From positions 1 to 37,602 of the forward strand of contig JAHFUS010000009.1 of the NCBI GenBank assembly GCA_023264975.1: a stretch of 37,602 bases of DNA. Reading direction: 5' to 3'. The translations under genes were made by a program, and so were the position numbers. Source of the stretch: Actinomycetes bacterium. GTDB taxonomy: Bacteria > Actinomycetota > Acidimicrobiia > Acidimicrobiales > GCA-2861595. Under the pieces are notes generated by a model. It saw only the letters and a program-made list of their open reading frames with translations. It did not search any database and was not told where the DNA came from. This document shows, piece after piece, positions 575-37,602 of this stretch. Each line of letters begins with the position of its first letter. Within the stretch, counting starts at the first letter, position 1.

Positions 575-1234
575 GTGGCACTCGGCCGACGGCCCCGGCG
601 CGTTGCGATCTCCGCGTTGGCGGTGGTCGCTGCCAGCTGCACGGCGTTGTCCGCCTGCGGTGGGACGCAGTACCACTACGTCAAGAGCACCTCGGACCGG
701 ACCTTCGTGCGGGTGCCTTCGAAGTGGACGCTTTTCAACGAGGACGACCTGCTCAAGGCCAGCGACGACTCCGTCGAGACCAAGACGCTCTTCAAAAAGC
801 TCACGTGGTCCGTCGCCTTCGATGCCGCCCCCAAGCCGTCGCTCGAGCATCTGCTCACTCCCTCCGCCCACCCCACCGGCCTCGTCCAGGTGCGTACCCT
901 TCTGCCGACCCAGCGGGATACGTTCTCTCTGGCCGACCTGCGGTCGCTGCTGCTGTCGTACGACCCGCTGTCGGACGAGGCGCAGGCCAACGGTGAGGTT
1001 GAGGTGCTGGACGCCACGGAGGTGCGCCGAGGCGGGGGGCTGCACGGCAGTGAACTGTTGCTCAACGTCAAGACCGAAGCAGGCGAGATCGTGAAGTGGC
1101 ACCAGATCGCGCTCACCGACGCATCCATCAGCAAGGTCCACGTGCTGGCGATCGGCTGTAACGAGGATTGCTACTCCGCCAACGAGGGCGTGATCGACAA
1201 GATCGTCGACTCGTGGAAAGTGAAGGAGCCATGA
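575..1234 (+). CDS. Predicted lipoprotein, function unknown
   Basis: A 219-residue exported protein. The N-terminus has positive charges (GRRPRR), a hydrophobic core (VAISALAVVAASCTAL) and a lipobox LSAC at about residues 25-28, so it should be lipidated on that cysteine and held on the outer face of the membrane. The mature part carries no domain I recognise. It has the soluble alternating pattern (for example FVRVPSKWTLFNEDDL and ALTDASISKVHVLAIGC) of small actinobacterial lipoproteins. The GTG start at 575 follows a leaderless-type -10 box. The stop TGA (1232-1234) sits inside ATGA, which is also the start of repeat unit A, so it is linked through that unit to the FtsH-like gene. That link suggests, but does not show, a shared role at the membrane. 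Confidence 0.75.
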   Translation: MALGRRPRRVAISALAVVAASCTALSACGGTQYHYVKSTSDRTFVRVPSKWTLFNEDDLLKASDDSVETKTLFKKLTWSVAFDAAPKPSLEHLLTPSAHPTGLVQVRTLLPTQRDTFSLADLRSLLLSYDPLSDEAQANGEVEVLDATEVRRGGGLHGSELLLNVKTEAGEIVKWHQIALTDASISKVHVLAIGCNEDCYSANEGVIDKIVDSWKVKEP

Positions 1235-1302
1235 CCGGCCCGAGAGGAAGGTCCAGCGGCAACTCGCTGGCGCGACATCACGAAGGGATGGTGTGCCAGT
1301 GA
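1231..1302 (+). repeat. 68-bp junction repeat, copy A: 23-codon micro-ORF linking two genes
   Basis: Copy A begins at ATG 1231, overlapping the lipoprotein stop as ATGA, and reads 23 codons to TGA 1300-1302. That TGA overlaps the next gene's GTG (1299) as GTGA. The peptide begins MTGPRGRS and ends HHEGMVCQ. Start-to-start distance is 68 bp. Head (ATGACCGGCCCG, then GAGGA-AGGTCC) and tail (CGAAGGGATGG, then CCAGTGACC) match the copies at 19897 and 24174; the middle differs. The middle forms a 6-bp hairpin, CCAGCG/CGCTGG, with a 6-nt loop. GAAGGGA serves as a Shine-Dalgarno-like element for GTG 1299. Confidence 0.8.
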
Positions 1303-18275: not shown

Positions 18276-19850
18276 GTGCTGCGGCCCGCCCTCGAGCTCG
18301 CCTTCGACGTCGCGCGGATCGGCGCCCGGTCGGTCCCGCCCATCGAGGCACCGCGGGCGGTGCGGCCCCTCCTCCACTTCACCGGGCGACTGCCGGACGG
18401 CGCGTTGGGTGCCCTGCGGCGCGGGCTCGACGAGGACGACGGCTTCCGGGCGCGTGTGGCCGGACTGGCGGACGAGGACGAGCTGGGCCGGGCCGGCTGG
18501 CTGCTGGTGATGCGCCCCGAGGGCTGGGACTCGGAGCTGGCCGGGATCCTGGACCAGGCCGGCGCCAAGGCCCGGGCCGAGCAGGAGGAGAAGGAGGAGC
18601 GCAGTGCCCGCCGGCGCCTGGCCCACGCCGAGCAGGCCACCGAGCGGGCGGAGGCGGCGGCGGCCCGGGCGAGGGCCGAGCTGGCGGCGGCCACCACCGA
18701 GCTGGCGACTGAGCGCCGTTCCCGGCGGGCGGCGCAGGACGACGTCGCCCGGCTGACCCGCAAGGTCGAGTCGCTGGAGGGCGAGCGGGACAGCTCCCGC
18801 CGGCGGGCGGTCGAATCTGCGGCCGAGGTGGAGCGCCTGCAGGCCGGGCTGGTTGTGGCACAGGGTGAAGCGGCCCGGCTGGGCTCGGCCCTCGAGGCAG
18901 CCGAGGCCGATGCCGCGGCGCGGGCGTTCAGGGAGCGGGCCGAACAGCTGCGGGCCGGGGCGGGGGGGAGTGACGCCGACGCGGTGCGGGCGAAGGGGCG
19001 CCCCGGCGACGGGCGCCGGCCGGCGCCGGCGGACACACCGGCTGGTGGGTTGCCGGCGGTGGCGAGGGATCGGTCGTCGGGGTCCGCAACGGGGGGCTCC
19101 GGCCGCGCCGGCGTGGCCGGCACGTCGGCGTCGAGCAGCGGCGCAGCAGGCGCCGGCGCGCCGGCGTCCAGCAGCGGCGGTCGGGCCGGGATGCCGGCGT
19201 CCAGCAGCGGCGGCCGGGCCGGGGACGGTCCCGATCTCCAGCTCGTGGCCGATGCCGTCGCAGCCGCCGCAGCAGCTGCGTCCACCCTGGGCATGGCCCT
19301 CGCCGAGGCATCGTCCGCCCTGGCCCCTGTGGCTGCGCCCTCCGCCACGCCGCCCCCGTCCCGGCCTCCTCGTGTCGGCCCCGCCGCCCCACGGCGGCGC
19401 CCCGCAGCGCTGCCGCCCGCTGTGTTCGACGACACGACGGAGGCAGCCGTGCACCTGGTCCGTGTCCCGGGGGCGCTGGTGCTGGTCGACGGTTACAACG
19501 CGGCCAAGGCGCTGTGGCCGGACGCGGCGCCACTGGAGCTGCGCGAGCGCCTCGTCGACGCACTGAGCGAGCTGGTCGCCCGCACCGGCAGCGTCATCCA
19601 TGTCGTCTACGACGGGGCCGACGTCGGCCTGCCGCCGTCGCGGCCGACCACCACGCGCGGGGTGCGGGTCTCCTTCTCGCCGGCCGACGTGGAGGCGGAC
19701 GACGTGATCCTCGACCTCGTCGACGCCGAGCCACCGGCTCGGGCCGTGGTGGTGGCGTCGAGCGACCACCGCGTGCGCGACGGCGCCCGCCGGCGCGGCG
19801 CCAACGTCATCACGAGCGCGCAGCTCGCCGCCGTCCTCGGGCGGTCCTGA
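18276..19850 (+). CDS. YacP-like NYN-domain protein with a coiled-coil N-terminus
   Basis: A 524-residue protein. Residues 1 to about 90 form a globular N-terminal part (MRPALELAFDVARIGARS-type start, WLLVMRPEGWDSELAGIL). About 95-230 is a charged coiled coil (EQEEKEERSARRRLAHAEQA, LTRKVESLEGERDSSRRRA). About 235-390 is Ala/Ser/Gly-rich linker with a 33-bp DNA repeat (19158-19223). The C-terminal ~165 residues are a NYN (PIN-like) nuclease domain: ALVLVDGYNAAKALWPDA, IHVVYDGADVG, ADDVILDLVD and VVVASSDHRVRDGA. The conserved acidic residues (VDGYN, ADD, SSDHRVRD) are all there, so nuclease activity is plausible. Bacillus YacP (Rae1) is a ribosome-associated mRNA endonuclease of this family. 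Start GTG 18276 is three bases after a 7-bp hairpin (18253-18272). Confidence 0.82.
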   Translation: MLRPALELAFDVARIGARSVPPIEAPRAVRPLLHFTGRLPDGALGALRRGLDEDDGFRARVAGLADEDELGRAGWLLVMRPEGWDSELAGILDQAGAKARAEQEEKEERSARRRLAHAEQATERAEAAAARARAELAAATTELATERRSRRAAQDDVARLTRKVESLEGERDSSRRRAVESAAEVERLQAGLVVAQGEAARLGSALEAAEADAAARAFRERAEQLRAGAGGSDADAVRAKGRPGDGRRPAPADTPAGGLPAVARDRSSGSATGGSGRAGVAGTSASSSGAAGAGAPASSSGGRAGMPASSSGGRAGDGPDLQLVADAVAAAAAAASTLGMALAEASSALAPVAAPSATPPPSRPPRVGPAAPRRRPAALPPAVFDDTTEAAVHLVRVPGALVLVDGYNAAKALWPDAAPLELRERLVDALSELVARTGSVIHVVYDGADVGLPPSRPTTTRGVRVSFSPADVEADDVILDLVDAEPPARAVVVASSDHRVRDGARRRGANVITSAQLAAVLGRS

Positions 19851-19896: not shown

Positions 19897-19968
19897 ATGA
19901 CCGGCCCGGGAGGACGGTCCACGAGCAACTCACCGGTGTGCCGTCCCGAAGGGATGGTCCACCAGTGA
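19897..19968 (+). repeat. 68-bp junction repeat, copy B1: intact 23-codon micro-ORF
   Basis: Copy B1 reads from ATG 19897 to TGA 19966-19968. The peptide starts MTGPGGRS and ends PEGMVHQ. Its head carries GGGAGGACGG and its tail CGAAGGGATGG then CACCAGTGAC. Unlike copies A and C1 it does not begin on the upstream gene's stop; the NYN gene ends 46 bp earlier. Its stop overlaps the GTG of copy B2. Confidence 0.8.
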
Positions 19969-20039
19969 CTGGCCCGGAAAGTAGGTAAGTCCACCAGCAG
20001 CGCGCTGGTGCGACAGGACGAAGGATTGGAGCACCAGTG
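19965..20039 (+). repeat. 68-bp junction repeat, copy B2: decayed, 72 bp
   Basis: Copy B2 keeps the head (GTGACTGGCCCGGAAAG) and tail (CGAAGGATTGG then CACCAGTG), but TAA appears at the eighth codon. The unit is 72 bp long because of small insertions. Its end is exactly the GTG start (20037) of the next gene. The middle forms a 7-bp hairpin, CACCAGC/GCTGGTG, at the position of the copy A hairpin although the bases differ. Confidence 0.7.
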
Positions 20040-20237
20040 CCTGCATCGCTCTCCATCAGCTGCGACGACTGCATCGCCCACGACACCGACGCCTGCGCCG
20101 ACTGCGTGGTGAGTTTCATCTGCGACCGCGAGCCCGGTGACGCCGTGATCATCGACGTCTCCGAGGAGCGGGCCGTGCGCCTCCTGGCGCAGGCCGGTCT
20201 CGTGCCGGCCCTGCGGCACAAGAAGAGGACGGGTTGA
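20037..20237 (+). CDS. Small Cys-rich protein, function unknown
   Basis: 66 residues: MPASLSISCDDCIAHDTDAC, then ADCVVSFIC, then an acidic strand (AVIIDVSEERAVRLLAQAGLV) and a basic end. Five cysteines in the first third (CDDC, CADC, C) suggest a bound zinc or a small iron-sulfur site. The same layout occurs in short conserved actinobacterial proteins next to sepH-type genes in my recollection, but I know no function. GTG 20037 is the end point of repeat B2, which supplies GAAGGATTGG as ribosome site. SepH starts 52 bp after the stop. Confidence 0.7.
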   Translation: MPASLSISCDDCIAHDTDACADCVVSFICDREPGDAVIIDVSEERAVRLLAQAGLVPALRHKKRTG

Positions 20238-20288: not shown

Positions 20289-22751
20289 GTGAAGAAGCTC
20301 CACCTCATTGGCTTCACACCCGACGATGATGGGCTGGTTCTGTCTGCCCGTAAGGGCTCAAAATCAGGCGGTTTCGTGGTCGCACTCGACGACGGTCTCG
20401 TCGCGGCGATCGACCAGGCGCGCCGGCGCCGGTCCGGCGAGGAGATCCCACATAGCGGTGGGTCGGGCGCGGAGGGGACCACCCGTGGCGCCGGCCGGGT
20501 CCGGGCGCACAGCTCGCTGAGCCCAAGGGAGATCCAGTCGAGGCTGCGGGCGGGGAGCACCATCGCCGAGGTGGCCAGCCAGGCCGGGGTCGACGACGAG
20601 TGGGTGATGCGCTTCGCCGCACCGATCCTTGCCGAGCAGGCCCAGGTGGTGGCGAGCGCGCAGCGACTCACCCTGGTGAAGGCCCGGCGGGGCCCGTCGA
20701 TCGAGTCGCTTGCGCCGTCGGTGCAGTGGAACCTCAGCGACCGGGGCGTGAACTTCTCCGACGACGTGTTCGCCGACAGCTGGAGCGCCTTCAACCTGCA
20801 CGGAGCCCGCTGGGCGGTGCGCTTCGCCTACACCTCCCGCAAGCGTCGCCAGGTCGCCGAGTGGGAGGTCGACCTGCGCGAGCGCTCCCTCGTGGCCCGC
20901 AACCGCCTGGCCACCGACCTCGGCCACGTGGAGGAGGGCCGGCGCCGCCCCAGCCTCGAGCCGGCCGACCCGGGTGCACTCGACGCGGCGACGTCCGCCC
21001 CGGTCGGTCGGGTCGTTTCCAAGGCGCGCCCGGGCAGGGCGGCGAGCGGTGGCGGGCGGGCTGCCTCCGCCGGCGGACGGGCGCCGGCACGGCCGGCGGC
21101 CAAGCGTGCTGCCGGGACGGCGCGGCCGGCGGCCAAGAACGGGGCCAAGCGTGCTGCCGGGACGGAGCGGCCGGCGGCCAAGAAGGGGGCGGTGACGGCG
21201 GCCGAGCGTGCTGCCGGGACGGCGCGGCCGGCGGTCAAGAAGGGGGCGGAGCAGGCCACCGCTGCGGCCATGGGAGCGAAGAAGGTGGGCGCTGCGGTCG
21301 GGAAGCGGGCCGGAGCGACAGGCGGGCCGGTGAAGGGTGCCACGGCCACGGCGACGGGCGCTTCCGCCGCCAAGGCCGGAGCGAGGGGCGCAGCGGCGAC
21401 GGCCGGAGCGAGGGGCGCCGCGGCGAAGGCCGGTACTCCAGTTGCCGGCGCCAAGGCGGGCGGTCCGGCGACCCGGGCCGGTGGCGGGCGGGCGGCGGGT
21501 GCGGCGTCCTCCCGTGGCACGGCGTCCGCCGGGGCAGCCCGCTCCACCCCGGCGAGCCGATCGGGTCGGGAACCGTCGCCCCGCAAGGCTCGTCCGGCCG
21601 AGAAGGCGGACGGAGACACACCAGGAGCGTCCGACACCGGCCGTCGAGGGTTGTCGCCGACGGCCGAGCCTGTCGCCGACCGGCCGAGCCACCTGGCCCG
21701 CCCACCGTCGCCCATGAAGATGGCGAACCGGGCCACCACCTACGCGAGCCAGCGCCTCACCGCCACCAACGCCAGGCCGGCGCCGCCTGCACCGCAGCCA
21801 GCGCGCACGGCGTCGGGCCGGCAGCAGCCCGGCGCGGCCATGCCGGAGTCGTCGCATCCCGGGAACCCCCGCTTCGAACCGGCGCCCGCGCCTCGCCGCC
21901 CGCCGGGGCCGTCCCCGGCGAAGGCGTCCGCCCGTCCGGCCGGCGACGCCCGGCGCGACCAGGGGGCGGGGGAGCGCCCGCCCGTGATCGGGAGCGGCGT
22001 GTCCCGCACCGGTGGGGGAGCCGGCAACCGGACCACCGGCGGCTCTTCGCAGCGGGCCGGCTCCTCGGCCGTCGTGGTTCGGCCGCAGGCGCGACCGGGC
22101 GAGGGCCCGCCGCCCGCTGTGTCGGGACGCACCGGCGAACGCCCGCCGGCAGGGTCGGGACGCACCGGCGAACGCCCGCCGCCGGCACCCACGATCGCAG
22201 CGCCGTCCGCGAGTGTCCGTCCGGAGCCGGCCGGCGACTCGGGCTTCGAGGATCCCGCACGGCGCGGCGCAGCACGACCGGAGCCGGCCGGCGACACCGG
22301 TCCGGACTCGTCGGCACGGAGCGGCGCAGCCAGCCCAGCTCCGGCCGGCGACCCCGGCTCGAAGCAGCCGGCGCCGGGCGATGGCGCCCGACAGATGCCC
22401 GTCGTGGACGGCGGCCCCGAGCAGCCGGTACGGCTGGCTGACGCCGAGCCTACGGTCGCTCCGGTCCCGTCCGAGGCGCTCCCGCAGCCCGCACCGCGCA
22501 CGGCCGTGGCACCGCCGATCGGGCAGCCGCTCATGGCCTCCCGCCCAGAAGCGGTGGCGGCGGTCGACGAACGCCCGGCCGTGGTGATCCTGGCCCCCCG
22601 GGCGGCCGATGGCGGCGTCGCGCGCGATACACCCGAAGAGGAGGAACGTCGGGCCCGGCTGGCCTCCGCCTCGCGCCTGCGCAGTGCACTGACCGGCGCG
22701 GCCGCCACCCCCGGCGGCGCAGGGGGTAGGGGACGCCCCCGCCGCGCCTAG
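20289..22751 (+). CDS. sepH: Cell-division protein SepH (DUF3071) with a very long disordered tail
   Basis: 820 residues. The N-terminal ~225 residues are SepH: VKKLHLIGFTPDDDGLVLSA, FVVALDDGLVAAI, the helix-turn-helix part LSPREIQSRLRAGSTIAEVA through VDDEWVMRFAAPIL, and WSAFNLHGARWAVRFAYTSRKRRQVAEW. In Streptomyces and Mycobacterium SepH binds FtsZ through this region and promotes filament assembly. Residues ~240-400 are Lys/Ala/Arg-rich, histone H1-like, with RAAGTARPAAK-type repeats. Residues ~400-800 are Pro/Ala/Gly/Arg-rich with DNA-level repeats (RTGERPPAGSG-type near 22120-22190). Known SepH proteins are usually far shorter (about 300-500). GTG 20289 is preceded by TACGTT nine bases upstream. 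No frameshift is seen. Confidence 0.88.
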   Translation: MKKLHLIGFTPDDDGLVLSARKGSKSGGFVVALDDGLVAAIDQARRRRSGEEIPHSGGSGAEGTTRGAGRVRAHSSLSPREIQSRLRAGSTIAEVASQAGVDDEWVMRFAAPILAEQAQVVASAQRLTLVKARRGPSIESLAPSVQWNLSDRGVNFSDDVFADSWSAFNLHGARWAVRFAYTSRKRRQVAEWEVDLRERSLVARNRLATDLGHVEEGRRRPSLEPADPGALDAATSAPVGRVVSKARPGRAASGGGRAASAGGRAPARPAAKRAAGTARPAAKNGAKRAAGTERPAAKKGAVTAAERAAGTARPAVKKGAEQATAAAMGAKKVGAAVGKRAGATGGPVKGATATATGASAAKAGARGAAATAGARGAAAKAGTPVAGAKAGGPATRAGGGRAAGAASSRGTASAGAARSTPASRSGREPSPRKARPAEKADGDTPGASDTGRRGLSPTAEPVADRPSHLARPPSPMKMANRATTYASQRLTATNARPAPPAPQPARTASGRQQPGAAMPESSHPGNPRFEPAPAPRRPPGPSPAKASARPAGDARRDQGAGERPPVIGSGVSRTGGGAGNRTTGGSSQRAGSSAVVVRPQARPGEGPPPAVSGRTGERPPAGSGRTGERPPPAPTIAAPSASVRPEPAGDSGFEDPARRGAARPEPAGDTGPDSSARSGAASPAPAGDPGSKQPAPGDGARQMPVVDGGPEQPVRLADAEPTVAPVPSEALPQPAPRTAVAPPIGQPLMASRPEAVAAVDERPAVVILAPRAADGGVARDTPEEEERRARLASASRLRSALTGAAATPGGAGGRGRPRRA

Positions 22752-23091: not shown

Positions 23092-24177
23092 GTGGCGGTG
23101 GCCGCCGACCTGTCGCTCCTCGCCGGCGAACTGCTGGCGGCCGGCCGCCGGGCCGGGCTCGACGCAGTCGGCGTGGCGTCGGCCGACGCGTTCGAGGGCA
23201 CGAGGCGGGTCATCGAGGAGCGCAAGGCGGCTGGCCTGCACGCCGGCATGCACTTCACCTACGGCAACCCGGCCCGATCCACCGATCCCGGCAGCGCTCT
23301 TACCGGCGCCAGCGCACTGGTCGTGGGAGCGCGCTCCTACCGGCGGGTCCCTCCAGACGCCCAGCCGGGTCCCTCAGGCGCCGTGGCCCGGTACTCATGG
23401 GACGACGCCTACGCCCCGTTGCGGACGGCCCTCGGCGACGTGGCAGGCCTGCTGCAGGCGGCCGGCTGGCGGGCGCGGGTGCTGGCCGACGACAACGCGC
23501 TCGTCGACCGTGAGGCCGCCCACCGGGCCGGTATCGGGTGGTACGGGAAGAACACCAACCTCCTGCTCCCCGGCCGGGGGTCCTGGTTCGTGCTCGGCTC
23601 GGTGGTCACCGACGCGCCTCTTCCGCCGGCGCTCGCCCCCGTTGAGGACGGCTGTGGCGCCTGCACCCGCTGCCTGCCGGCCTGCCCCACGAGTGCACTG
23701 ATCGCACCCGGCGTACTCGATGCCCGGCGCTGCCTGGCCTGGCTCCTCCAAGCGGAGGGCGACTTCCCCGTCGAGTACCGCGAGGCGCTCGGCGGGCGCA
23801 TCTACGGCTGTGACGAGTGTCAGGAGGTGTGCCCTGTGAACCGGGCGGCCGACCGGGGCCATCCGCCGCCGCCGGCACACGAGCACGACCAGCCCACCGT
23901 CTCACTGATCGACCTGCTGGATGCCTCCGACGACGATCTGCTCGACCGGTACGGGCGGTGGTACATCCCCCGCCGCCAGCCCCGGTACGTCCGCCGCAAC
24001 GCCCTTGTCGCGTTGGGGAACGTGGGCGACGGGGCCGACCCGGAGGTGGTACGCGTCCTCCGCCGGGCGCTCGCCTCCGACGACCCGATGCTGTGTGAGC
24101 ACGCCGAATGGGCGGCGACGCGGCTCGGCCGCACGGACCTCGTGGCCGCCGGCGCCGGGCGGATGGCGCACCGATGA
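23092..24177 (+). CDS. queG: Epoxyqueuosine reductase
   Basis: A 361-residue QueG, the cobalamin- and iron-sulfur-dependent enzyme that reduces epoxyqueuosine to queuosine at position 34 of tRNAs. Visible are the N-terminal region (LDAVGVASADAFEGTRRVIE, GLHAGMHFTYGNPARSTDP), the cobalamin-domain part WYGKNTNLLLPGRGSWFVLG, and two 4Fe-4S clusters: CGACTRCLPACPTSAL and YGCDECQEVCPVNRA. The C-terminus carries HEAT-like repeats (YVRRNALVALGNVGDGADPE). Length is normal. Start GTG 23092 fits the family N-terminus; no strong ribosome site is visible. The stop TGA (24175-24177) lies in ATGA, which starts repeat C1. No other queuosine genes are nearby. Confidence 0.93.
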   Translation: MAVAADLSLLAGELLAAGRRAGLDAVGVASADAFEGTRRVIEERKAAGLHAGMHFTYGNPARSTDPGSALTGASALVVGARSYRRVPPDAQPGPSGAVARYSWDDAYAPLRTALGDVAGLLQAAGWRARVLADDNALVDREAAHRAGIGWYGKNTNLLLPGRGSWFVLGSVVTDAPLPPALAPVEDGCGACTRCLPACPTSALIAPGVLDARRCLAWLLQAEGDFPVEYREALGGRIYGCDECQEVCPVNRAADRGHPPPPAHEHDQPTVSLIDLLDASDDDLLDRYGRWYIPRRQPRYVRRNALVALGNVGDGADPEVVRVLRRALASDDPMLCEHAEWAATRLGRTDLVAAGAGRMAHR

Positions 24178-24245
24178 CCGGCCGGGAGGGACGGTCGGCC
24201 AGCACTTCAGAGGTGCGCCATCTCGAAGAGTCGGTGGACCAATGA
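24174..24245 (+). repeat. 68-bp junction repeat, copy C1: intact 23-codon micro-ORF
   Basis: ATG 24174 overlaps the queG stop as ATGA. The frame runs 23 codons to TGA 24243-24245, which overlaps the ATG of copy C2. The peptide starts MTGREGRSAS and ends EESVDQ. Its first 53 bases differ from C2 at only a few positions, so C1 and C2 look like a local duplication. Its tail (GAAGAGTCGG) has lost the GGGATGG found in the other copies. Confidence 0.8.
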
Positions 24246-24313
24246 CCGGCCCGGAAGGACGGTCGGCCAGCAACTCAGAGGTGCGCCATCTCGAAGGGAT
24301 GGCACACCGGTGA
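24242..24313 (+). repeat. 68-bp junction repeat, copy C2: intact 23-codon micro-ORF
   Basis: Copy C2 reads from ATG 24242, overlapping C1 as ATGA, to TGA 24311-24313. That stop overlaps the GTG (24310) of the glycosyltransferase gene as GTGA. The peptide starts MTGPEGRSASNS and ends LEGMAHR. GAAGGGATGG ten bases before the GTG can act as its ribosome site. The middle can fold as a short imperfect stem. Confidence 0.8.
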
Positions 24314-25434
24314 CTGCCCTCCTCGTCACCAACGACTTCCCCCCCAAGGTGGGCGGCATCCAGTCGTACCTGTGGGAGCTGTGGCGGCGGCTGCCGGCGG
24401 AGCAGGCCACCGTGCTCACGACCGCCTACCCCGGCGCAGGCGCCTTCGACGCCGAGCAGGGCTTCCGCGTGGTGCGGGCCGGGCGGGTCCTGCTGCCCAC
24501 GCCGGCCCTCATCCGCCGGGTGCAGAAACTGGCCGCAGAGGTAGGTGCGAGGGCGGTGGTGCTCGACCCGGCCCTGCCGGTCGGCCTCATCGGGCCCCGC
24601 CTCGGCATCCCCTACGCGGTGGTGCTGCACGGCGCCGAGGTGACGGTGCCGGGGCGGCTCCCGGGATGCAGGGCTGCGCTGGCGCACGTCCTCGGGGGCG
24701 CTGTGCACCTGGTGGCGGCGGGTGGGTATCCGGCGGCAGAGGCCGCCCGGGCGTTACGGAGCGCGGTGCCGGCGGTCAGCCTCGTGCCGCCGGGCGTGGA
24801 CGGGGGCCGGTTCCGGCCGTTGACCGACGATGGCCGGGCCAAGGCCCGAGCCGACTTCGGCCTCCCCGAAGGCGCCGACCTGGTGGTGGGCGTCAGCCGC
24901 CTGGTGCCCCGTAAGGGCATGGACACGCTGGTCCGGGCCGCAGCGCTGCTGGCGCCGGGGCGTCCCGACCTGGTGGTCGCGGTGGCGGGTCAGGGGCGGG
25001 ACTTGGAGCGGCTCCGGAAGCTGGTGGCCGAGACGCTGGCGCCCGTGCGCTTCCTCGGCCGGGTGCCCGACGACCGCCTGCCCTCGTTGTACGGCTGCGC
25101 CGACGTGTTTGCCGCGCCGTGCCGGTCGCGCTGGCGGGGACTGGAGCAGGAGGGGTTCGGGATCGTCTTCCTGGAGGCGGCGGCTTGCGGCGTGCCCCAG
25201 GTGGCGGGGGACAGCGGGGGCGCGGCCGAGGCGGTCGCCGACGGCGAGACCGGTGTCGTGGTGCGCGATCCGTCCGATGCCGCCTCGGTAGCGGCCGCCA
25301 TCGCCGGCCTCCTCGACGACCCGGCCCGGCGCCGGTCGATGGGCGCGGCGGCCCGCCGGCGGGCACTCGAGCACTTCTCCTATGACCGCCTGGCCGCCAC
25401 CCTCTCCGGCGTGCTGGCCGGGCTCGCCCGATGA
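24310..25434 (+). CDS. GT4-family glycosyltransferase, PimB-like
   Basis: A 374-residue GT-B fold glycosyltransferase. The N-terminus MTALLVTNDFPPKVGGIQSY holds the acceptor-side glycine motif; the nucleotide-sugar half has LVVGVSRLVPRKGMDTLVRA, VRFLGRVPDDRLPSLYGCADVF and the EX7E motif EGFGIVFLEAAACGVPQVAG. The overall look is that of actinobacterial mannosyltransferases such as PimB, which adds mannose to phosphatidylinositol mannosides at the inner membrane face. Sugar and acceptor are inferred, not shown. The start GTG is set by the end of repeat C2. The stop overlaps the next ATG as ATGA. DUF2993/LmeA, also in this window, is linked to the same envelope lipids in mycobacteria. Confidence 0.85.
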   Translation: MTALLVTNDFPPKVGGIQSYLWELWRRLPAEQATVLTTAYPGAGAFDAEQGFRVVRAGRVLLPTPALIRRVQKLAAEVGARAVVLDPALPVGLIGPRLGIPYAVVLHGAEVTVPGRLPGCRAALAHVLGGAVHLVAAGGYPAAEAARALRSAVPAVSLVPPGVDGGRFRPLTDDGRAKARADFGLPEGADLVVGVSRLVPRKGMDTLVRAAALLAPGRPDLVVAVAGQGRDLERLRKLVAETLAPVRFLGRVPDDRLPSLYGCADVFAAPCRSRWRGLEQEGFGIVFLEAAACGVPQVAGDSGGAAEAVADGETGVVVRDPSDAASVAAAIAGLLDDPARRRSMGAAARRRALEHFSYDRLAATLSGVLAGLAR

Positions 25435-26156
25435 CGTCCACCGACCCGGCCGACGAGCCCGCCGCGCAACCGACCGGCAAGCCGACCACCGCCGGCGAGC
25501 CCGCCGCCGCCGAACCCGCCGGCGAACTCAGCGCCGAACCCGCCGCCGAACCCGCCGCCGAACCCGCCGGCGACCTCGCCGCGGACATCGTCCACACTGA
25601 CGACGGCAGCGGGCCACCAGCGCCCGTCGCCCCCTCCGGTGCGCCGGGCGCCGGCCTGGTGAAGGCGTCGTGGGGGGCCACGGTGGTGTTCGTCGTCACG
25701 GCGGGCGTGGCGGCGGCGGTGCCCGACGCCGGCATCCCCGCCCTGGTGGTGGCGCTGGTCCTGTTCGCCGGCGGCACGGCCGCGTTCGCCGGCGCCCTCC
25801 TCCGAGCCGCCGCCCGCAGCCGTCGCGAAGAGCTCACCATGGGGCGCCTGTTCTTCCTGGAGGGGGCGCCCACGGCGATCCGCCGCCAACTCTTCGCGGC
25901 GCTCGCCATCGAGGTGGTTGCCGCCTTCGTCACCGCCGGCCTACGGCCCAACTCGACCCTGGCCTTCGGGGTCCTGGCCCCCGTGTGGGGCGAGGGCGTG
26001 GCCGCACTGTGGGCCGCCAGCCACGGCACGTTCCCTTCTCGCCGCCCGCCGTCGCGCCCGGCAGCCGGGGCCACGGCGGCGGCCAGTTCCGCAGGGGGCG
26101 AGGTCGAGGGAGCGATTGCGGGCCCCGAACCCCCGGACGGCTCGGCACCGTCGTGA
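25431..26156 (+). CDS. Membrane protein with a repetitive acidic N-terminus, function unknown
   Basis: 241 residues. The first ~60 are Pro/Ala/Glu/Gly repeats (EPAAEPAAEPAG and relatives, from a short DNA repeat at about 25500-25570) and probably disordered. Then come four hydrophobic stretches: GATVVFVVTAGVAAAV, ALVVALVLFAGGTAAFAGAL, LFAALAIEVVAAFVTAGL and FGVLAPVWGEGVAALW. A cytoplasmic loop between the second and third is basic (RAAARSRREELTMGRL). The C-terminus is Ser/Pro/Ala-rich. No known family is recognised; similar four-span proteins follow GT4 genes in actinobacteria, which hints at an envelope role. It is coupled to the glycosyltransferase by a 4-bp overlap. Confidence 0.7.
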   Translation: MTSTDPADEPAAQPTGKPTTAGEPAAAEPAGELSAEPAAEPAAEPAGDLAADIVHTDDGSGPPAPVAPSGAPGAGLVKASWGATVVFVVTAGVAAAVPDAGIPALVVALVLFAGGTAAFAGALLRAAARSRREELTMGRLFFLEGAPTAIRRQLFAALAIEVVAAFVTAGLRPNSTLAFGVLAPVWGEGVAALWAASHGTFPSRRPPSRPAAGATAAASSAGGEVEGAIAGPEPPDGSAPS

Positions 26157-37546: not shown

Positions 37547-37602
37547 CAAGGACCCCTGTGACGAGGACCCCTGTGACAAGGACCCCTGTGACAAGGACCC
37601 CT
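37547..37602. repeat. 15-bp tandem repeat at the window end
   Basis: The unit CAAGGACCCCTGTGA is repeated at least 3.7 times up to the last base (one copy has CGAGG), and the array continues beyond the window. Just before it, GGGGTC in GGGGGTCTGGCAAGGACCCC can pair with the first GACCCC. It starts 84 bp after nrdJ. It has no spacers, so it is not a CRISPR array. Confidence 0.8.

Follow-up and report, generated by a model that had tools for sequence, protein, structure and literature searches.

A short dispersed repeat, very probably mobile, that mostly lies, with an open micro-ORF, at gene stop/start overlaps in Acidimicrobiia

The window (the whole stretch of 37,602 nucleotides analysed here) contains a putative queG gene, the name being taken over from the initial annotation, that encodes a 4Fe–4S protein and is followed by two units, C1 and C2, and by a glycosyltransferase gene (table 1). 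The micro-ORF of C1 begins with ATG, comprises 23 codons in all and ends with TGA; that of C2 is built on the same plan. The junctions queG/C1, C1/C2 and C2/glycosyltransferase are ATGA, ATGA and GTGA, respectively. The initial annotation had described two micro-ORFs chained by three 4-bp overlaps, with the reading-frame logic preserved from queG through both units to the glycosyltransferase; the coordinates, the starts and stops and the frame logic are all confirmed. C1 and C2 are identical at 60 of 72 nt, and four of the 12 differences fall within the first 53 nt when the sequences are read by eye. As a tandem repeat, the pair has a period of 68 (Tandem Repeats Finder score 219) and 85% identity over 68 nt.

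Table 1. Coordinates of the genes, repeat units and hairpins discussed in the text.
Feature	Position	Strand	Remarks
Second site, one unit	1231..1302	+	85.3 bits; preceded by an ORF ending at 1234; followed by an FtsH-like gene (AAA, Peptidase_M41) with its called start at GTG 1299
Third site, unit 1, open micro-ORF	19897..19968	+	89.7 bits; 46 nt past the stop of a YacP-like gene (18276-19850)
Third site, unit 2, degenerate	19965..20041	+	56 bits; internal TAA 19986-19988; next called ORF starts at the terminal GTG (20037)
Upstream gene, putative queG, 4Fe-4S protein	23092..24177	+	Pfam Fer4_16; stop TGA 24175-24177 falls within the first RTGA of C1
Last codons of queG, resembling the 3' end of a unit	24158..24177	+	11/12 nt before the RTGA equal the end of C2
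Unit C1	24174..24245	+	72 nt, RTGA to RTGA; micro-ORF MTGREGRSASTSEVRHLEESVDQ; model match 41.7 bits, E 1.1e-4
Unit C2	24242..24313	+	72 nt, RTGA to RTGA; micro-ORF MTGPEGRSASNSEVRHLEGMAHR; model match 80.9 bits, E 2.6e-12
Hairpin 1 of C2 (unit positions 3-23)	24244..24264	+	Folding; compensatory pairs in further carriers
Hairpin 2 of C2 (unit positions 34-72)	24275..24313	+	Folding; covariation; right foot is the GTGA with the start codon of the next gene
Downstream glycosyltransferase gene (Glycos_transf_1)	24310..25434	+	GTG start (24310) within the last GTGA of C2

Units are present at three sites of the window: 1231–1302, 19897–20041 (two units, the second degenerate) and 24174–24313. The window also holds other tandem repeats. 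A 15-bp repeat (CAAGGACCCCTGTGA, 3.7 copies) at 37547–37602 reaches the window edge. Several repeats with periods of 12–57 bp lie at 21069–21433, inside the long ORF 20289–22751, whose first part matches DUF3071, and repeats with periods of 12–36 bp are found at 25469–25582, at the start of the ORF 25431–26156, which follows the glycosyltransferase gene and has no Pfam family.

The window's own genome (G000; 3.78 Mb in 139 contigs) was searched at the DNA level with the junction region, which gave 42 matches at E ≤ 10, the stronger ones mostly bounded near an RTGA on each side. The consensus from an alignment of 22 copies is GTGACCGGCCCGGGAGGACGGTCCATCAGCAACTCACnGGTGCGACATCnCGAAGGGATGGTGCACCAGTGAC. 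A covariance model was built from this alignment, and the 22 training copies match it by construction. In G000 the model gives 64 matches at E ≤ 1 and 48 at E ≤ 0.0018, the latter grouped into 41 sites. The typical unit measures 72 nt from RTGA to RTGA, and tandem arrays comprise two to four units. Rfam offered no known RNA family: there are no matches in the window, and the best one otherwise, CC1840, stays below the gathering score (24.8 bits against 50; E = 0.28).

Because units match at 41 sites in the same genome, the C1/C2 arrangement is not due to chance, and since the unit is a dispersed repeat, the queG–glycosyltransferase junction would first have been struck by an insertion. The initial annotation had overlooked these dispersed copies and proposed a recent local duplication, which is probably correct for the tandem step. 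Identity among the dispersed 72-nt copies of G000 averages 72% (maximum 89%), so C1 and C2, with 60 of 72 nt, are closer to each other than the average copy and probably arose by local duplication. They also have in common CGGTCGGCC together with TCAGAGG, not seen in 28 other copies read by eye. A simple duplication at one junction, with nothing wider behind it, would account for this closeness. As the whole story it is refuted by the dispersed copies and has a negligible probability, given the 41 sites in one genome, the carriers in another family and the lack of any unit at the queG junction in the 29 relatives read (see below).

The model matches at E ≤ 0.01 in seven of the 59 genomes of the relatives set (G000 included), with 48 matches in G000, 44 in G033, seven in G003, four in G001, two each in G014 and G029, and one in G032. 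G033 belongs to another family of the same order; G003 and G001 are closer relatives, and G001 is of the same genus as G000. Under stricter filters than those used for the 59 genomes, 397 genomes of the order yield 10 with matches at E ≤ 0.001, most of them from the two families f1 and f29. Under such stricter filters, one of 396 genomes drawn from the phylum, G000 itself, has a match, and the 395 others have none. A pattern of the 5′ end occurs in all seven carriers searched and its backward control in none; further carriers named are G082, G117 and G239. The exact 25-nt 5′ pattern is found in 30 stretches of the genome_contigs collection, which come from three assemblies bearing the name Acidimicrobiia or Acidimicrobiales; this collection may not include the window's own records. 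In viral_contigs, where carriage by phages was looked for, the pattern was not found.

The genes next to the units were predicted with a codon model, for which 399 kb of G000 from unit-bearing contigs served as the training set. At 66 of the 78 sites in four genomes both flanking genes lie on the strand of the unit; six sites have only the upstream and six only the downstream gene on this strand, and none is antisense to both neighbours. In a strict recount, a frame of 40 or more open codons with a clear coding score was required on both sides, and three G033 arrays were merged with an upstream unit. Both junctions are then exact, the first TGA being the upstream stop and the last RTG the downstream start, at 46 of the 78 sites (17/41 in G000, 19/26 in G033, 6/7 in G003 and 4/4 in G001). 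A looser first count, which took in five sites whose flanking frames are weak or very short, gave 49/78 (21/41, 17/26, 7/7 and 4/4, in the same order). The strict test failed on at least one side at 24 of the 41 G000 sites, and on both sides at 10 sites in G000 and at none in G033, G003 or G001. At most sites, not all, the units sit in sense orientation at RTGA/DTGA stop/start overlaps.

The 399 kb of G000 contain 250 same-strand gene pairs, 47 of them capable of a 4-nt overlap, and 542 intergenic RTGA. If units landed at random on overlaps or intergenic RTGA, the chance of 17 of 41 would be about 5e-9, under a null model that ignores selection against intergenic insertion. The step from the looser to the strict count leaves the odds as they were.

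The micro-ORF is open in 67 of the 76 parsed units (27/33 in G000, 31/33 in G033, 7/7 in G003 and 2/3 in G001); the parser did not delimit 15 of 48 matches in G000 and 4 of 37 in G033, and these are absent from all frame counts. The open units measure 72 nt (50 units), 69 nt (10), 54 nt (three) and 93, 57, 75 and 51 nt (one each). The nine others are off frame or broken and measure 73 nt (six units) and 70, 71 and 74 nt (one each). Outside the 72-nt class there are thus 17 open units and nine that are not open, an excess over one third in frame that is modest because many of the 17 are related. The frame is kept by 26 of 30 tandem spacings and in 16 of 20 arrays, as read from the listed 5′ ends, the units of one array being related and not independent. 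Changes in copy number therefore do not break the frame as often as they keep it, the pattern that the initial annotation had named as contrary to its proposal.

Several units have other arrangements. A 73-nt unit of G000 (C38:52950) has its own ATG in frame with the downstream gene, so that translation could continue into this gene. In G239, the arrays C96, C147 and C75 have a spacing of 50, corresponding to units of 54 nt, a shorter length class in which the frame is still kept. At G000 C112:31322-31468 (L007), one ORF seems to run in frame through a unit and a second, partial one, a fusion resembling those of Rickettsia palindromic elements (RPEs). Two further G000 loci, L030 (C43:3982) and L031 (C1:94077), clearly show no more than the 5′ part of a unit, which at C43 may have turned into the start of the downstream gene.

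The first residues of the micro-ORF, [VM]TGPGGRS, are nearly constant, and the 48 distinct 72-nt units contain no internal stop in frame 0, against eight and three in the other frames, as a functional small protein would predict. However, the constant residues overlie hairpin 1, where all codon positions are nearly constant, and the later residues vary freely. In hairpin 2 of G000, the changes by codon position number 41, 90 and 45. Neither hairpin 2 nor the linker has an excess of changes at third positions; the peptide is therefore without visible protein selection, and a protein function for it is most improbable.

The unit contains two hairpins. For hairpin 2, 81.6 per cent of cells in the 48 distinct 72-nt units are paired, against a shuffle maximum of 74.8 per cent. 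There are 84 both-sided changes, compared with a mean of 34 and a maximum of 51 in shuffles (which ignore relatedness) and with 15–34 in slid versions of the hairpin. Positions 32–72 fold with a mean z of −4.2 in G000 and −6.1 in G033 relative to mononucleotide shuffles. A TCAC at the left foot of this hairpin is the pairing partner of the last GTGA, which includes the next start codon. For hairpin 1, both-sided changes are absent from the 48 distinct 72-nt units. A compensatory pair is found in 10 of 22 multiply changed 5′ ends (G033, G117, G239 and G082; one per site or array), or in eight of 22 without two that use a free position, where about 1 per cent is expected for two random changes. 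Within the copies of G000 alone the covariation is weak (RNAalifold term +0.15; 17 of 500 shuffles reach the score), and it becomes clear once the other carriers are added. Both hairpins are kept by paired changes.

Of 44 genomes with a match, the best 30 were taken for a reading of the queG locus; they comprise G000 itself and 29 relatives. The glycosyltransferase gene follows queG in all 30 loci. Relative to the first base of the queG stop codon, the extrapolated start of the glycosyltransferase gene in the 29 relatives falls between 1 nt upstream and 22 nt downstream, which leaves no room for a unit, and none is present; the overlap offset is −1 in 13 of them. In the same-genus genome G001 the junction reads CCGGTGTGACGGCG, a plain GTGA overlap. 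Judged from gene order in these loci, the queG–glycosyltransferase pair is old. The comparison of unit numbers at this junction, suggested in the initial annotation, thus gives zero units in all 29 relatives, and off-frame single units exist elsewhere (the 9 of 76 above). Its view that the repeat links two genes with no obvious common task is not supported, the two being adjacent in these relatives and already overlapping in G001.

The other G000 sites were compared with 561 kb of G001, where both flanks are adjacent for three of them: site 1231 of the window, C83 and C29. At the counterpart of site 1231 the unit is absent, and the sequence is TTGA with TTG in the downstream frame. The unit is also absent from the counterpart of C83, where the start lies about 23 nt past the first base of the stop codon. 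The flanks of C29 have 48 per cent and 33 per cent identity, and the G001 pair is probably a paralogous one. Site C1 of G003 is unit-free in G001, and two weak G033 pairs in the comparison carry little information. Among sites with usable flanks, two are common to two genomes by both flanking proteins: C38:86527 of G000 with C140 of G003, and C77 of G001 with C108 of G003. Of the 41 G000 sites, one is therefore shared with one of the seven sites of G003, and none with the four of G001, by usable flanking proteins.

A structured regulatory RNA of the host, tuning the downstream gene at selected operons and not mobile, would be in keeping with the covariation of both hairpins, with the pairing of hairpin 2 to the next start codon and with the two shared insertion sites, which indicate that some copies persist. 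Such repeats can gain regulatory roles, as the region of MIRUs (mycobacterial repeats, compared below) at senX3–regX3 has promoter activity according to PMC4213456. This reading is nevertheless unlikely in view of the high turnover of sites (1/41 and 0 shared), of identical or nearly identical tandem units and of the patchy presence of the repeat in 10 of 397 genomes of the order.

Choice of the target by a longer homology, between the left flank and the right end of the unit, was considered and rejected, most of 64 sites being at background. The mean number of matches among 12 left-flank positions in G000 is 4.5 to the own unit, 4.3 to other copies and 4.25 for control junctions. Bases resembling the right end precede the first RTGA in the queG tail of the window (11 of 12) and at the G000 sites C99 (2932; 10), C108 (31256; nine) and C29 (22749; nine). 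Three perfect matches in G033 (C11, C61 and C69) have a further unit just upstream, which explains C61 and C69; at C11 (18228) the right end is repeated even ahead of this further unit. When aligned, the queG tails of G000 and G001 stop at one column but have different last residues, and the G000 tail at 24158–24177 is possibly a conversion tract or the remnant of an earlier unit. There is no general target duplication beyond the RTGA.

We consider it very probable that the family to which C1 and C2 belong as a tandem pair is a small, non-autonomous mobile element of Acidimicrobiia, which enters stop/start overlaps and relays translational coupling. Dispersed copies and empty sites suggest the mobility. 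Because the unit begins and ends with RTGA, a stop/start overlap is present on both of its sides. A ribosome that ends the upstream gene would restart at the same RTG of the unit and then read the micro-ORF, usually of 23 codons. In doing so it would melt hairpin 2, which would otherwise pair the next start codon (GTGA with TCAC), and free this start. The ribosome would stop at the last RTGA and restart on the downstream gene, and coupling could be passed on in this way through one or several units. Insertion would be cheap for the host because the coupling is relayed through the unit.

The insertion machinery may recognize the stop/start overlap itself, that is the coding-strand RTGA, perhaps exposed by coupled translation or single-stranded, as opposed to landing anywhere and being tolerated at overlaps; the covarying hairpins would then be the substrate of the transposition enzyme. 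We propose this tentatively and with some doubt. In principle that enzyme could be akin to the mobilizer of the MIRUs, on which we know of no report. No candidate for a mobilizing gene was found, and the search for a longer, autonomous relative sharing these ends was made by eye only.

REP elements with their RAYT transposase are short hairpin repeats tied to a tetranucleotide. The Acidimicrobiia repeat is likewise short, hairpin-bearing and tetranucleotide-tied, without general target duplication beyond the RTGA, and could be imagined as a REP-like element whose mover is a Y1 transposase, either REP-associated or of the IS200/IS605 type. In contrast, 13 of 59 relatives have Y1_Tnp (PF01797), but the seven with model matches all lack it (draft genomes; G082, G117 and G239 were outside this search), which makes such a mover very unlikely. 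One relative of the same order without the element, G037, has 24 Y1_Tnp matches in its genome.

According to PMC2229807, RPEs and other bacterial MITEs with open frames are either fused in frame with genes or located between genes. They resemble the Acidimicrobiia repeat in being small, non-autonomous and palindromic, and in being able to carry open frames, and the G000 unit at C112 is seemingly read through. By that description they differ from it, since the Acidimicrobiia repeat usually lies at a stop/start overlap with a separate micro-ORF.

MIRUs, the mycobacterial interspersed repetitive units, reportedly go back to Supply et al. in 1997. They are a basis of tuberculosis typing, and their insertion follows the rule of DTGA stop/start sites. 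MIRUs are repeats of 46–101 bp, with 41 loci in M. tuberculosis H37Rv (PMC3914561). They appear to be mobile and enter start codons, with an internal ORF coupled at −4 nt that likely limits the impact on the gene, and they occur in 'many mycobacteria' (PMC12548453). PMC4213456 gives MIRUs between senX3 and regX3 for M. leprae and the M. tuberculosis complex only.

The Acidimicrobiia repeat resembles them in several respects. It is short, dispersed and tandem (mostly 72 nt, 41 sites in G000). It is inserted in sense at DTGA-type sites, exactly so at 46 of 78, with GTGA and TTGA at empty junctions. Its internal ORF overlaps both neighbours by 4 nt and is open in 67 of 76 parsed units. It differs in its host class, the named carriers of the exact pattern being MAGs of Acidimicrobiia or Acidimicrobiales and not mycobacteria. 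The pattern and the model match nothing outside the order in the data searched, and the likeness to MIRUs is one of design. As its hosts form another group of bacteria and these searches turned up no sequence in common, we do not class the repeat as a MIRU; we regard it as a family that shares the known MIRU design, apparently with a sequence of its own. A single narrow group makes it hard to test how MIRUs spread and why they are placed at coupled genes. That a different class of the phylum has a second family of this design suggests that mobile DNA repeatedly finds a safe harbour in stop/start overlaps. The empty sites, the several length classes and the paired hairpin changes of this family provide independent material for finding the mobilizer and for testing relayed coupling.
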